From IMG/VR virus record IMGVR_UViG_3300030419_001555, positions 1 through 39,082 of that record: 39,082 bases of DNA, one strand, 5' to 3'. This document shows positions 5,592-11,737 of this stretch, piece by piece (the first letter of the stretch is position 1; the number at the start of each line of letters is the position of its first letter). The notes under the pieces were generated by a model. That model did not search any database, had not been told where the DNA came from, and saw only the letters and a program-made list of their open reading frames with translations. A program made the translations under genes and the position numbers. This DNA is from a virus.

Positions 5592-5761
5592 TTCATATCC
5601 TCCTCGCACTCACAACAGTAAATGCTTCCTAATTGTATTTCTTTAGATTGTAAGCACAAAGCACAAGTTGGAAGTTCAAAATTGTTCACTTCAATCTTTG
5701 TCCAATCAAATCCATTCCAACTTAATTTAAATCCGCTTTTATTGAATCCAGGAATACCCAT
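5588..5761 (-). CDS. 57-aa zinc-ribbon protein
   Basis: This reverse-strand ORF starts in a TAATG overlap with the SGNH gene stop and ends in an ATGA overlap with the 81-aa gene, so both ends fit the local coupling pattern. It reads MGIPGFNKSGFKLSWNGFDW..., then a CX2C-X12-CX2C array (TCALC ... YCCEC) typical of a single-zinc ribbon, and a short acidic tail. Function is unknown; binding of nucleic acid or host protein is a reasonable guess. Confidence 0.7.
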   Translation of the reverse strand: MGIPGFNKSGFKLSWNGFDWTKIEVNNFELPTCALCLQSKEIQLGSIYCCECEEDMK

Positions 5762-6528
5762 TATATGAGTACTCCTGTTTCATTTACGTATCTTTTAACT
5801 GCTCTAGCAATTCGTTTTGCTCCAATCTCATTTGGCTCAATCTCGTTGTAATAACATTTTGGCGACATTACTTCTCTAATGTCCAATACATCATAAGATG
5901 ATTTATATAAACGTGAGTTTTTATCTCTAGCTATCCTTGATATTCTGTCGTTCCACATACTTACAATAGCTTTCGCTGTGTAATCCATTCCGTAAAATCG
6001 TTGTGGATTGTATGCTAGGTTACCCTCGTAACAAGTCATCAAGAGATAAGTAGCTCGTGTTTTAAATTGTTGAAGCATAGTTTCGTATGCATTAGACAAT
6101 TTATCTAACTCACTAAGTAATAAACCATTTAACAAGTTTGTGTCATCAATTTCTTTAACCATTGAAATAAGTTTCAATAAGTCGTTTCCGCCTACACTAA
6201 CTACAACTAATTTAGATTTGTCGTTTATCTGATTTGCTTTTTCAATGCAATCATATATTGTATCGCCATCTCTACTTTGGTCGTTTATCATACTCATGTA
6301 TGTTTCGTTGGCGTAAGATTCTGCGAAATAGTCCACAGTTCCTTTGCCTGTTCTAGTGTAGGATTTACAATCAATAACACTATCGCCAATGAATGTGATT
6401 TCTGCTCGTTCATTAATGTTCTTTCTGTTCAAGCTAGTCTGAATAGTATTTCCATAAAACTGTTCGTCCTGGCTTGAGCTTTGCCCATCAATAAACCAAT
6501 CATCTGGCATATCGTGTATTTTGGTCAT
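5761..6528 (-). CDS. SGNH/GDSL-hydrolase-fold protein with altered catalytic block V
   Basis: The 255-aa protein shows SGNH block I FIGDSVID (G48-D49-S50), a block II-like glycine (RDGDT, G88) and block III VGGND (N115), so the fold and the nucleophilic serine appear intact. In block V, where D-x-x-H-P-N would be expected, the sequence is N228-E-I-E231-P-N-E-I-G236: both the Asp and the His of the usual dyad are replaced. I recall similar I-E-P strings in some actinophage relatives, so this may be a subfamily trait rather than decay. Canonical members hydrolyse esters or deacetylate sugars. It is the first gene of the leftward block and starts after AAAGGA. Catalysis by this variant is uncertain. 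Confidence 0.75.
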   Translation of the reverse strand: MTKIHDMPDDWFIDGQSSSQDEQFYGNTIQTSLNRKNINERAEITFIGDSVIDCKSYTRTGKGTVDYFAESYANETYMSMINDQSRDGDTIYDCIEKANQINDKSKLVVVSVGGNDLLKLISMVKEIDDTNLLNGLLLSELDKLSNAYETMLQQFKTRATYLLMTCYEGNLAYNPQRFYGMDYTAKAIVSMWNDRISRIARDKNSRLYKSSYDVLDIREVMSPKCYYNEIEPNEIGAKRIARAVKRYVNETGVLI

Positions 6529-7966: not shown

Positions 7967-9547
7967 ATGAGAATAGGAAGTTTATTTAGCGGTATAGGCG
8001 GAATCGAGTACGGACTAGAGCGGTCTGGACTAGCCACCTCTTCAGAATGGATGATAGAGATGGACGAATACTGCTGTTCTATATTAAGAAAAAATTTTCC
8101 AAATACATTAGTAATAAATAAAAAAGTAGAAGAAGTAAACCCTTTGGATTTACCAAAGATAGATATACTGACAGCAGGATTTCCGTGTCAGCCTGTATCT
8201 GTAGCAGGTTCGAGAAAAGGAGTTAAAGATGAAAGATGGTTATGGGATGAAGTATGGAGATTTATTGATGTACTTCGACCACGATACTTTATCTTGGAAA
8301 ATGTCCCAGGAATATTTACAGCAAACAAAGGGAAAGCCTTTGAAAGAGTTATCAAAGATATTGCCAAGAGCAGGAGTTATAGATTTGAATGGCAAATTAT
8401 ATCAGCAAGAACAGTTGGTGCAGCACACCTTAGAAAAAGATTCTTCGGAGTTGGAACATTGGGAGACACCGAACACAATGGACCACTTGAATCCGAGGAC
8501 AGGGGAAGCATTGGAGAACGTACTATACAGAGGCGACAAGGAGAAGAAATCCAAGAGAAAGTCAACAGGAAATCTCAGGGAGAATCCAAAGATAACTCAG
8601 TATTCAACTCCAAGAGCAAGTCAAGCAACGAAACCGATAAACAAACAAGCTCCGTCAGTGAAAGCAGGGAAACACGGCTCGACATTGGAACAGGACATGG
8701 GAGAGAGAAATCCAGAGTTGATAGGGAAAAGGCTGAACTATGGATGGGTAGCACGGCTCATGGGTTTTCCAGATGGATGGCTGAGTTAGGTTTACTTAAT
8801 GTATGGACAGGTAATGTTAATAATTGGAGAACTCCAACAACAGCAGATAAAAAAGAAGATGCTTTAAAACACGCAACTAAATTACTACAAGGAAAAGATA
8901 CAAGAGCATCAGGTGAATCTGTACAAATAACATTAGCTGACCAGGTAGCTATGGATGATATAAAAAATAATCCTGAACTATTTGAAAAATATAAAGACCA
9001 CATAATGATGAAAAGACCTAACTTACCTGAACAAAAAATCTTTGTAGATTATTTAAGAAGTATTACTTCTATAAAAGAACTATCTGAAAAAACAGATATA
9101 AAAAAATCTACTATAGAACATTGGTTTAGATACGATACTTCAGGCTTTAGTTATCCAAATATAGAAGATTGGAATAAAATAAAACCCTTTTTATCAGAAG
9201 TTAAATACGACAAAGAAATGACAACTCTTGAATCTTTTGAATGGAAAAGCAATAAACATAAATTTGGAACACCATTAACAAGTTCTGAAAGACCTTCTAT
9301 TAAAAGAATAATTGAAGGAAACAATCCTAAAAAACAATTAAGTGAAGACCCTAAAGTTTATTTTGAAGAAGATTACGATATGTGGGAAATAGGTATGCCT
9401 AGGTCTATGGAGAACTATGAAGGAAGAAAAGAAAAATTAACAGCTTTAGGTAACGCAGTAGTTCCACAATGTGTAGAGCTTGTTGGAAGATTAATATTAA
9501 GAGCTGATAAATTAAAAACTTTAGTTTTTGACAACGATATAAAATAA
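7967..9547 (+). CDS. DNA cytosine-5 methyltransferase
   Basis: C5-methyltransferase transferring a methyl group from S-adenosylmethionine to cytosine. Visible motifs: I FSGIGG (7-12), II-like EMDEYC, IV GFPCQPVSVAG with catalytic C74, VI ENVPG (111-115), VIII HLRKR (154-158), and X LGNAVVPQ near 494-501. At 526 aa it is longer than the usual minimal enzyme: between VIII and X are a polar low-complexity stretch, a segment beginning NNWRTPTTAD with ASGESVQITLADQV, and an HTH-like KELSEKTDIKKSTIEHWFR, presumably target recognition. Residues 88-275 are also coding in the +1 frame (8229-8789). The ATG has no clear Shine-Dalgarno sequence, unlike the internal ORF. No partner endonuclease is seen, so it may protect phage DNA. 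Its target site is unknown. Confidence 0.93.
   Translation: MRIGSLFSGIGGIEYGLERSGLATSSEWMIEMDEYCCSILRKNFPNTLVINKKVEEVNPLDLPKIDILTAGFPCQPVSVAGSRKGVKDERWLWDEVWRFIDVLRPRYFILENVPGIFTANKGKAFERVIKDIAKSRSYRFEWQIISARTVGAAHLRKRFFGVGTLGDTEHNGPLESEDRGSIGERTIQRRQGEEIQEKVNRKSQGESKDNSVFNSKSKSSNETDKQTSSVSESRETRLDIGTGHGREKSRVDREKAELWMGSTAHGFSRWMAELGLLNVWTGNVNNWRTPTTADKKEDALKHATKLLQGKDTRASGESVQITLADQVAMDDIKNNPELFEKYKDHIMMKRPNLPEQKIFVDYLRSITSIKELSEKTDIKKSTIEHWFRYDTSGFSYPNIEDWNKIKPFLSEVKYDKEMTTLESFEWKSNKHKFGTPLTSSERPSIKRIIEGNNPKKQLSEDPKVYFEEDYDMWEIGMPRSMENYEGRKEKLTALGNAVVPQCVELVGRLILRADKLKTLVFDNDIK
8229..8789 (+). CDS. 186-aa overprinted ORF nested in the methyltransferase gene (+1 frame)
   Basis: The ATG follows AAAAGGAG with a 6-nt spacer, an excellent ribosome binding site. 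The product has YFDHDTLSWKMSQ (15-27), SKILPRAGV (42-50), ELEHWETPNTMD (74-85), YSTPRASQ (125-132) and LNYGWVARLMGFPDGW (169-184). These match, from memory, the order of a widespread phage protein type: 'DPxTxSWKTSQ ... PRSGM ... WPTPT ... LNPxWVEWLMGFPxGWT', usually annotated as methyltransferase-associated or hypothetical. The host frame over the same bases carries genuine C5-methyltransferase motifs VI and VIII. Both frames therefore look functional. It may be a recognition or accessory subunit; no catalytic residues were identified. Expression is unproven. Confidence 0.6.
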   Translation: MKDGYGMKYGDLLMYFDHDTLSWKMSQEYLQQTKGKPLKELSKILPRAGVIDLNGKLYQQEQLVQHTLEKDSSELEHWETPNTMDHLNPRTGEALENVLYRGDKEKKSKRKSTGNLRENPKITQYSTPRASQATKPINKQAPSVKAGKHGSTLEQDMGERNPELIGKRLNYGWVARLMGFPDGWLS

Positions 9548-9735: not shown

Positions 9736-9834
9736 TTGATAAACGTAACCTGCCCAAGATGTGGTGGAGTGTTATTACCAAGCAAAAAAATGAAATGCCG
9801 AAATAAGGAATGTAAAAACTATGGCAAAAAATAA
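9736..9834 (+). CDS. 32-aa zinc-ribbon micro-protein (TTG start)
   Basis: The frame has TCPRCGG and MKCRNKECKNYG, a CX2C ... CX4C zinc-ribbon pattern, with a basic C-terminus. No ATG is in frame; TTG at 9736 lies two bases after the preceding TAG, which would allow translational coupling, although a clear ribosome binding site is lacking. The 3' end overlaps the terminase start by 14 nt. The four spaced cysteines in a short ORF argue that it is real. Confidence 0.5.
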   Translation: MINVTCPRCGGVLLPSKKMKCRNKECKNYGKK

Positions 9835-11737
9835 ATTATGTTACGCTGCAGGATGTCATAGACCTCTTCCAAAAAATAGAAAAAAATATTGCAGTGATAG
9901 GTGTTCTAATAGAATTAACATGCAAAAAAAACGTGCTAGAAAACTAGGCGTTGAATGGGAACAAGAAGAAGATACATTAGTTATACCTAGTCAAAAAACA
10001 AATGTTCAATCAAGAAGAGGCAAAGTCTATAATGACATTGTTGAATCAGGTTTAGCCCAGGAAATATTAGAAAAGAAAAATACAATTAAAGGTGTAGCAA
10101 AGATATTAGAAACAACTGATGGAGCAGTATCTATGGCATATTCTGCTTATGTTGAAGATTTAGAATTAGAAAAAGCACAAGAAAAATGGTCATTACCGCA
10201 AGTTGCAGAAAAAACATTATCAGACTTTAGTGACTTTAGAGATAGATATTTTCAAACAGAACAAGGTGTAGCATACGAAACACCTGATTTTCATATTAAA
10301 TGGATAGAAGAAATTATGAAAACTATTGAAGAAGGTGGACAGCACATGATATTATCACCGCCTCGTCATGGTAAAACAGATTTATTAATACATTTTGCTG
10401 TATGGTTAATCTGTAAAAATCCAAACGTAAGAATACTTTGGGTTGGAGGTAATGAAGAAATATCTAAAAATGCAGTGAGTTCTGTACTTGACCAACTAGA
10501 AAATAACGAATTATTAATAGAAGAGTTTTGTGGACCTGGAGAAAAATTTAAACCAACATCACGTACAGGTAAAGCCTGGTCTCAAAATGGTTTTACTGTA
10601 GGAACAAGAACGGTTACAGGAATTAAAAGTCCTACAATGGTTGGATTAGGACGTGGTGGTAAAATACTTTCAAGAGACTGTGACATAATAATTGCAGATG
10701 ACATTGAAGACCACAGTTCTACTATGCAACCATCTAGTAGAGAAAATACAAGAAATTGGTGGACTACAACATTATCAAGTAGAAAAGAGGAACATACAGC
10801 TATTGTAGTTATTGGTTCAAGACAACATTATGACGATTTATATTCTCATTTGTCTGAAAACGAAAGTTGGACAACAACAATAGAAGAAGCACACGATACA
10901 GCTTGTACATTACCTGAAGAAGTAGAACATACAGATTGTATGTTATGGGGTTCTAAAAGAACACACAAATGGTTAATGGATAGAAAACGTGCTGCAGAAA
11001 CTACAGGTGGTAGAGCTATATATGAAATGGTTTATCTTAATGTTGCTATGCCTGAAGGACTTGCATTATTTGATAGAGTAGAAATAGAAGCATGTAGAGA
11101 CCAAGGTAGAGATATAGGAACAGTACCGCCTGGAACTAGACTTATTGCAGGTTTAGACCCTGCGTCAACAGGTTACCAAGCTGCTTTTTTATGGGCTGTT
11201 GATGTTGAAAGAAATGTTTTACATATGGTAGATATGAACAACTCTTTAGGAGGAGGTATTCCACAAGCATTAAATGTAATTAAAGAATGGTGGATGAAAT
11301 ATAATTTATCACATTGGGTTATTGAAGAAAACGGTTTTCAAAAAGCAATAAGACAAGACAGAAGTATTAGAGATTTTGCTTCGACTCACGGAATATTTTT
11401 AGAAGGACACGAAACTCACAACAATAAATTTGACCCAATATTTGGTGTTACTGCTATGAGACCATTATTTACTGAAAATAAAATTTCTTTGCCATATCTT
11501 GGATTTGAAGCCCAAGAAAAGGTAAACTTATATACGAGTCAGTTGGTTTATTTTAGTTCTGCAAAAACTAAAAGTAAGTCGATAGGTACAAAGACTGATA
11601 TAGTTATGGCTAGTTGGTTTCCTATGAAAGCAATAAGACGTATGCAAAAAGAACGTTTTGCTGAATTAGGGTACGATTATAGTCCTAGCTTTTCAGGGTA
11701 CGAACCTAGTAGTATTGATATAGATAATTGGAGATAG
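9821..11737 (+). CDS. terL: Terminase large subunit (ATPase and nuclease) with N-terminal zinc-finger
   Basis: DNA-packaging motor that cuts concatemers and drives DNA into the prohead. Residues 1-35 hold a Cys4 cluster (C7, C12, C24, C28) followed by a basic helix. Residues 65-115 contain an HTH-like TIKGVAKILETTDGAVSMAY. The ATPase domain has Walker A PPRHGKT (180-186) and Walker B CDIIIADDIED (277-287), with IGSRQHYDDLY as the coupling region. The RuvC-like nuclease shows D436 (AGLDPAS), the acidic pair in VIEENGF (492-493) and D583 (KTDIVMA). At 638 aa it is longer than many because of the N-terminal module, which may provide the DNA recognition normally given by a small subunit; no separate small-subunit gene is seen next to it. 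Confidence 0.95.
   Translation: MAKNKLCYAAGCHRPLPKNRKKYCSDRCSNRINMQKKRARKLGVEWEQEEDTLVIPSQKTNVQSRRGKVYNDIVESGLAQEILEKKNTIKGVAKILETTDGAVSMAYSAYVEDLELEKAQEKWSLPQVAEKTLSDFSDFRDRYFQTEQGVAYETPDFHIKWIEEIMKTIEEGGQHMILSPPRHGKTDLLIHFAVWLICKNPNVRILWVGGNEEISKNAVSSVLDQLENNELLIEEFCGPGEKFKPTSRTGKAWSQNGFTVGTRTVTGIKSPTMVGLGRGGKILSRDCDIIIADDIEDHSSTMQPSSRENTRNWWTTTLSSRKEEHTAIVVIGSRQHYDDLYSHLSENESWTTTIEEAHDTACTLPEEVEHTDCMLWGSKRTHKWLMDRKRAAETTGGRAIYEMVYLNVAMPEGLALFDRVEIEACRDQGRDIGTVPPGTRLIAGLDPASTGYQAAFLWAVDVERNVLHMVDMNNSLGGGIPQALNVIKEWWMKYNLSHWVIEENGFQKAIRQDRSIRDFASTHGIFLEGHETHNNKFDPIFGVTAMRPLFTENKISLPYLGFEAQEKVNLYTSQLVYFSSAKTKSKSIGTKTDIVMASWFPMKAIRRMQKERFAELGYDYSPSFSGYEPSSIDIDNWR

Follow-up and report, generated by a model that had tools for sequence, protein, structure and literature searches.

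We describe a viral locus in which a single stretch of DNA very likely encodes both polypeptides of a C5-cytosine methyltransferase. In this view, the outer gene product (alpha, frame 0) would supply the catalytic and SAM-binding domain with motifs I–VIII and the C-terminal helix with motif X, and a nested product (beta), begun at its own start codon within the gene and read in +1, would supply the small DNA-reading domain with TP modules and motif IX; alpha and beta would probably combine as a single enzyme for the methylation of phage DNA. Both frames remain uninterrupted in hundreds of loci, motif IX lies in beta only and alpha is open through to motif X. Expression, including the separate translation of beta, as well as assembly, activity and the recognition role of the TP modules, is inferred, and there are no expression data.

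Architecture of the locus

The window, that is, the whole stretch of DNA that was analysed, is a virus record of 39082 bases, and all positions below refer to it. The locus has the following features.

7967..9547, + strand: alpha, C5-cytosine methyltransferase chain of 526 aa with motifs I–VIII and X (ORF call)
7967..8464, + strand: alpha catalytic domain, motifs I–VIII (motif search, HhaI match)
8215..8222, + strand: SD-like AAAAGGAG, six bases 5' of the beta ATG at 8229 (not diagnostic)
8229..8789, + strand: beta, nested ORF in the +1 frame, 186 aa, with TP modules and motif IX (ORF call)
8465..8789, + strand: alpha frame of the overlap past motif VIII, hydrophilic, drifting but open (selection, stop counts)
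8466..8582, + strand: beta module TPNTMD...TGNLRE (BLASTP to the Spartoi enzyme)
8733..8780, + strand: motif IX of beta, LNYGWVARLMGFPDGW (motif search, profile comparison)
8807..9283, + strand: TP/HTH-like module in the alpha frame (homologues 50-57% identical in the beta frame of other contigs)
9437..9469, + strand: motif X LTALGNAVVPQ in alpha (motif search, pattern at 9449)

The best matches of alpha were Pfam PF00145 (2e-50) and PHROG_363 (4.9e-55), and its best solved relative was HhaI, across residues 2-162. Motif IV (AGFPCQ) was located at 8174, and a motif pattern search of alpha did not find motif IX in frame 0 of the window. An earlier note, made from the sequence alone, had claimed that a +1 ORF lies at 8229-8789 inside a C5 methyltransferase gene. 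This claim held, as the ORFs and all of the motifs that it named were confirmed: motif VI RPRYFILENVPG, motif VIII AAHLRKRF and STAHGFSRWMAELG in the alpha frame, and YFDHDTLSWKMSQ, LPRAGV, two TP modules (ETPNTMD, STPRASQ) and LNYGWVARLMGFPDGW in the +1 frame.

In an AlphaFold2 model of alpha, block pLDDT was 79-98 for residues 1-170 and 31-49 for residues 171-290; it was 67 at residues 491-500, and 94 and 91 for the helix at 501-520. The model was used only in its confident parts, and to mark the unconfident ones, and its alignment held some single-chain rows. A large-terminase gene (9821-11737) lies just downstream of alpha. Elsewhere in the window, the minus strand at 5761-6528 encodes a 255-aa protein with FIGDSVID and GGNDLL that matches PHROG_14008 (unknown function) and that looks, by these motifs, like an SGNH/GDSL-type hydrolase.

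Beta carries motif IX and target-recognition-type modules

When a beta profile was compared with the motif IX stretch of single-chain enzymes, hhalign matched them at 96.6% (E 5.5e-10, 26 columns), aligning LNPxWVEWLMGFPxGW of beta with LNPxFVEWMMGLPxGW of the single-chain phage enzymes. The single-chain profile aligned to HhaI residues 14-307, with the MMGLP-type stretch falling on motif IX of HhaI. By BLASTP, window beta residues 80-186 also aligned with residues 226-318 of the single chain encoded by Rothia phage Spartoi (E 1e-9), and both TPNTMD and TGNLRE lie within the match. Because the motif IX profiles match and the in-frame recognition region of the Spartoi enzyme is matched as well, beta holds the part that is missing from alpha. 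The homology between beta and the single-chain enzymes is shown for the C-terminal part of beta only. That the TP modules correspond to the target-recognition part is likely, by inference.

Window beta also matched PHROG_1008 (7.1e-8, residues 1-184). Pfam gave no meaningful match for the three betas tested (E 0.57 for window beta), NCBIfam gave none for the five betas tested, window beta included, and the beta profile searched against the PDB returned only two matches, both with E > 1. The AlphaFold2 model of beta was poor (pLDDT 66, pTM 0.31), with no Foldseek match at E <= 0.001, and was left unused.

Both reading frames are kept open

None of 5000 alpha-preserving synonymous shuffles of the window overlap was open in the +1 frame (mean 5.1 stops), and in the same shuffles the +2 frame, which has 16 stops, was expected to have 16.6. 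For 190 distinct nested loci, such shuffles predicted 833 stops in the +1 frame, where 0 were observed, and 2667 in the unused +2 frame, where 2756 were observed. These 190 loci had been picked for motif IX in an open +1 frame. The 15 single-chain genes contained 51 +1 stops versus 87.5 by shuffle, none of the 15 being open, and the shuffle baseline for +1 stops is somewhat high in places. Because of this baseline and the preselection of the loci, the independent weight falls not on these stop counts but on the other tests.

In the alpha frame between motifs VIII and IX, 212 loci had 0 stops versus 885 expected from beta-preserving shuffles. These loci, of the nested class, were preselected for an alpha that reaches motif X, and since they were thus selected for openness, the real check is the unselected remainder. 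Among 245 loci with motif IX in the +1 frame, a script found alpha open to X in 213 and X in beta in 12. Reading of the printed rows added 11 alphas open to a variant X (GNSL, GNAL, GNTI, LGQV) and seven loci with X in beta, so that the latter order, which resembles that of M.AquI, is found in a minority of relatives (12/245 by script, 19/245 after reading). The alpha of L009 is likely to be open to a degenerate X (RNGQVP). In L264, from a Thiotrichales MAG, beta is open and has motif IX, but a stop interrupts alpha early and an X-like stretch follows later in its frame; the pair may have decayed, the sequence may be in error, or there may be some other cause.

Selection acts on both frames

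We calculated two ratios over the doubly silent rate (SS): SN/SS for changes that are silent in alpha and alter beta, and NS/SS for changes that are silent in beta and alter alpha. The 210 nested rows were reduced to 190 distinct ones (at least one base different), from which disjoint pairs were formed in bands of identity. Rows counted as distinct can be very close: L148, the window copy, differs from L013 by three bases. No locus was used in two pairs, but near-identical ones recur, and the pairs are therefore not fully independent.

Beta is constrained throughout the overlap. For the whole overlap, 31 disjoint pairs at 75-98.5% alpha identity (close pairs) gave an SN/SS of 0.21 (0.17-0.27) and an NS/SS of 0.37 (0.27-0.52), and 64 pairs at 60-75% gave 0.38 (0.34-0.43) and 0.40 (0.35-0.48), respectively. 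When a fake beta frame was imposed on single-coding alpha as a control, the ratio for close pairs was 0.75 (0.56-1.06) upstream and 0.86 (0.63-1.37) downstream, and 0.88 and 0.82 for the 60-75% pairs. Alpha is constrained over motifs VI–VIII and IX. Over motifs VI–VIII, SN/SS and NS/SS were 0.21 and 0.08 for close pairs and 0.36 and 0.15 for the 60-75% pairs. Over the motif IX stretch they were 0.23 and 0.39 (0.24-0.97) for close pairs and 0.23 and 0.41 for the 60-75% pairs; the interval for close pairs reaches up to 0.97, and constraint on alpha here, though likely, has weaker support. Between motifs VIII and IX (region B), SN/SS was 0.20 and NS/SS 0.91 (0.68-1.40) for close pairs, and 0.48 and 0.93 for the 60-75% pairs. 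In this region the residues of alpha drift and its frame is kept open. Because the region borders were set by +1 stops, regional stop counts are partly true by construction, whereas SN/SS is not.

In the lineage of the window itself (12 pairs), SN/SS was 0.19 (0.11-0.29) in the overlap, versus 1.00 upstream and 0.90 downstream. Clear constraint on alpha was seen only over motifs VI–VIII (0.13), the ratio for the whole overlap being 0.71 (0.51-1.16). Between motifs VIII and IX alone, the beta ratio had a wide interval (0.33; 0.11-1.23) and is not firm, because the doubly silent changes were too few (2.5).

Nested loci are widespread

The 290 distinct full-length loci comprised 209 nested, 32 that have motif IX in +1 but lack a standard X in alpha, 28 single-chain and 21 others; motif IX was found in both frame 0 and +1 in 0/290 with the patterns used. 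In an early set of sources, found mostly by beta queries, beta overlapped alpha in the +1 frame in 145/149, three of which are split rather than nested (L005, L007, L008). This set repeats some contigs, includes the window as L148 and two loci that are cut off; Llama and Spartoi differ. A scan seeded only with motifs I–VIII returned 80 loci, of which 74 were full-length after removal of two duplicates and four cut ones. Forty of these 74 were nested, 13 single-chain and 11 others, and 10 had motif IX in +1 without a standard X in alpha. The nested share is biased upward because the seed consisted of seven nested rows and one single-chain row.

Among bacterial genomes, the beta profile matched at least 26/398 in the phylum of Acinetobacter and at least 7/398 in that of Brevibacillus, the centre genome being counted in each; these are lower bounds because scoring covered only some of the first-look candidates. 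All 42 bacterial rows recovered with the beta profile, in a search blind to alpha, overlapped an alpha in the +1 frame, 29 having the motif IX pattern and 31 the motif X pattern in alpha. Several of the 42 are one gene counted twice, and at least four (L381, L382, L383, L386; 23-25 bits, no motif IX pattern) are weak and likely echoes.

By name, the nested rows in our tree span 11 bacterial phyla (Bacillota, Actinomycetota, Elusimicrobiota, Planctomycetota, Chloroflexota, Myxococcota, Pseudomonadota, Spirochaetota, Gemmatimonadota, Bacteroidota and Verrucomicrobiota) and one archaeal MAG. Many nested bacterial or archaeal rows are MAG contigs, which may be prophage or misbinned. The pair was also found on three plasmid records (L345, L346, L390), from a collection whose gene table is incomplete. 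The double-coding stretch of Bas79 (L342) is present at 100% identity in six other coliphages named likewise, which we take to belong to the BASEL collection, and is for that reason open to experimental test.

Some rows were left in their class after reading of the printed sequences. Two of the nine "X-only" rows (L157, L179) are nested with LMAYP, and the other seven (L181, L195, L280, L210, L224, L290, L308) look single-chain with a variant motif IX. Of seven "none" rows, four (L008, L208, L217, L329) contain text resembling motif IX in a different frame. The class counts were left as they were for all of these rows. A nested ORF alone was rejected as the criterion of the class in view of Streptococcus phage MM1 ORF13/ORF14 (L344), a lookalike in which the outer gene has motif IX in frame and the annotated nested "putative methyltransferase" lacks it.

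The paired motifs and the internal ribosome-binding site

Opposite [LMV]-M-G of beta, alpha reads x-[HNDY]-G in 209/209 nested loci, a pairing that is forced by the code because methionine has the single codon ATG. In 123/209, exactly 14 residues separate this triple from the GN of motif X. The earlier note had placed the AHG-type pattern VAHGxPxRVDRL next to LGNAVVP; in the window, ~215 alpha residues lie between AHGFS and LGNAVVP. It had also suggested that the AHG- and LMG-type motifs may in every case come from one segment read in two frames, which was not supported, since single-chain enzymes read MMGLP in frame; the pairing within nested loci held and is explained by the genetic code.

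The ribosome-binding site that had been noted for the nested ORF is real and lies six bases before the ATG, but its value as evidence did not survive. An SD-like site with a start was present at the equivalent place in 12/15 single-chain relatives, 10-12 codons past the PCQ motif, and in 73/140 nested representatives, and glycine codons at the site were not shifted to GGA/GGG (0.58 vs 0.62 in the whole of alpha). The site was therefore rejected as evidence for beta. The stretch K-G-x-x-D-E-R after PCQ (8215-8231 in the window) often encodes an SD-like site and a +1 start without a nested gene. The site may be a by-product of this conserved methyltransferase stretch, and it is conceivable, by inference, that such a site and start were a pre-adaptation easing the gain of a nested gene.

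The other claims fared as follows. The result named as a refutation, a +1 frame broken by stops in homologues, was seen in 15/15 single-chain genes, but these have motif IX in their own frame. The proposed substitution check for constraint in both frames found it in beta over the whole overlap and in alpha over motifs VI–VIII and IX, not between. The idea of a widespread dual-coding pair hidden in annotation held, on the open +1 frame of the nested loci, the constraint and the bacterial rows found with the beta profile. The earlier note missed that the nested motif is motif IX of C5 methyltransferases and that M.EcoHK31I is a precedent.

A module found in either frame

The ~160-residue TP/HTH module that follows the beta stop in the alpha frame was found there as 17 distinct sequences, window included, 46-100% identical over the aligned stretch. 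The same module lies in the beta frame, wholly within both ORFs, in 11 distinct relatives (50-57% identical to the window), and in some of them the double-coding stretch reaches 1.0-1.1 kb. A twelfth +1 copy, in the IMG/VR contig L157 (3477-3896), lies past the end of alpha and represents a third position of the module. Substitutions in the module favoured its own third codon position in both settings (fractions 0.51 and 0.60; L157 is included and the pairs are not independent). One bolder reading, which remains only a possibility, is that recognition cassettes of one family swap between the two frames of one gene. In addition, L346 (Paenibacillus polymyxa plasmid pAP1) shows motif IX twice in the beta frame, the second past a stop, as if duplicated.

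In a quick tree of 181 catalytic domains, left from the 290 after near-copies and unclassed rows were dropped, the nested label needed 16 changes, at least seven of them forced by well supported branches. The layouts have thus interconverted, in a direction that is unsettled. Loci with motifs IX and X together in a second ORF (AquI-like; L005-L008 and others) are scattered among nested and single-chain rows on this tree. Because single-chain relatives carry the TRD/IX stretch in frame, the beta frame is probably the older one over that stretch. Over motifs VI–VIII the alpha frame is likely, again by inference, to be older, and the overlap would be reciprocal, each chain overprinting the other.

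Alternative explanations

Could the +1 frame be reached without a separate beta? A programmed +1 frameshift after motif VIII would make the TRD and motif IX an extension of alpha. In its favour, many relatives have the +1 frame open alongside motifs I–VIII, and some have motifs IX and X in a second frame with a short first ORF. However, beta is constrained over motifs VI–VIII (SN/SS 0.21), which would be untranslated in +1 if the shift took place at VIII; beta accordingly starts upstream of VIII. Moreover, the alpha frame continues open beyond VIII as far as X, and beta of the nested class ends before X. We consider the frameshift very unlikely, although no search for a slippery site was made. 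It is also very unlikely, and already disfavoured, that only one frame is real and the other is an echo of its constraint and biased codon use. Echoes of this kind probably exist, as in the four weak bacterial rows; the +1 ORF14 of MM1 is open and has no motif IX, the enzyme around it reading IX in its own frame, and single-chain genes have fewer +1 stops than their shuffles (51 vs 87.5). On the other hand, SN/SS rests on alpha-silent changes only and was 0.21 against 0.75-0.86 in the fake-frame controls, alpha-preserving shuffles expected 833 stops where 0 were observed, and in whichever frame it lies, the moving module is better conserved at positions 1 and 2 of its codons than at position 3.

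Beta might instead be made as a regulator or anti-defence protein whose gene simply happens to overlap that of the enzyme. The absence of evidence for enzyme activity and the lack of a confident model of beta leave room for this reading, but the C-terminus of beta is homologous to the very part of single-chain enzymes that alpha is without, and in-frame and nested motif IX are mutually exclusive, which makes this rival very unlikely too. We thus retain the two-polypeptide methyltransferase as the preferred reading.

Comparison with known methyltransferases

The closest known system is M.EcoHK31I, whose large chain contains motifs I–VIII and X and whose small chain contains motif IX (PMC3404938). 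M.EcoHK31I recognises YGGCCR and its small-chain gene is nested in the +1 frame; M.EaeI is similar. The activity of M.EcoHK31I is reported to need both polypeptides, by the title of a 1995 NAR paper. The window locus has the same division, with motif IX in the small chain and not in the large one, and the same nesting; because the division of motifs matches, the kind of enzyme would already be known from E. coli, by analogy and without a direct alignment. The two may differ in that the predicted target-recognition domain of M.EcoHK31I was placed in the large chain (PMC3404938), whereas constraint in the nested loci points to beta for the recognition-type modules, with alpha unconstrained between VIII and IX; however, the alpha of the window also carries a beta-type TP/HTH module. 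M.AquI (CYCGRG) is likewise a C5 methyltransferase split over two polypeptides, but there motifs IX and X both belong to the small subunit, and the window has its X in alpha. Single-chain phage enzymes such as Spartoi gene 40 share the catalytic domain, a homologous TPNTMD module and the type of motif IX; unlike the window, they have TRD and IX in one frame, with the +1 frame broken in all 15 examined.

What is likely to be new is the breadth (phages, 11 bacterial phyla and one archaeal MAG), betas without a Pfam or NCBIfam match, and a module in either frame. The literature that we searched contained no title on nested phage methyltransferases, and as coverage was incomplete, unpublished status is unproven; passages of PMC8227390, PMC3711429, PMC6536676, PMC3925955 and PMC2413257 do not mention nested methyltransferases.

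Annotation and implications

The betas tested match PHROG_1008 and the alphas PHROG_363, separate families that are both labelled "DNA methyltransferase", and among the results examined the PHROG library entries did not link them as one locus. Both ORFs of the nested pair are annotated in Escherichia phage K1G (ORF30/31) and Paenibacillus phage Likha (LIKHA_51/52), the two positives among eight phage records whose feature tables were examined (L001, L002, L003, L010, L011, L342, L343, L389). In the match listing for the Bas79 stretch, 3/25 rows show two features under the match. Because the betas tested have no meaningful Pfam or NCBIfam match, a gene of this kind is readily annotated as an enzyme on its own, and we infer that a recoded alpha gene expressed as "the methyltransferase" would destroy beta.

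Long conserved double coding on the same strand is usually seen as a feature of small viruses. Overprinting in prokaryotes is described in one review as wider than thought (PMC8227390), and nested double coding looks like a common way to encode a phage C5 methyltransferase (40/74, a share biased upward). If cassettes do swap between frames, the enzyme of the window could carry two recognition sets, one per chain; the architecture of reciprocal overlap would then be old, repeatedly gained or lost and used to diversify specificity.
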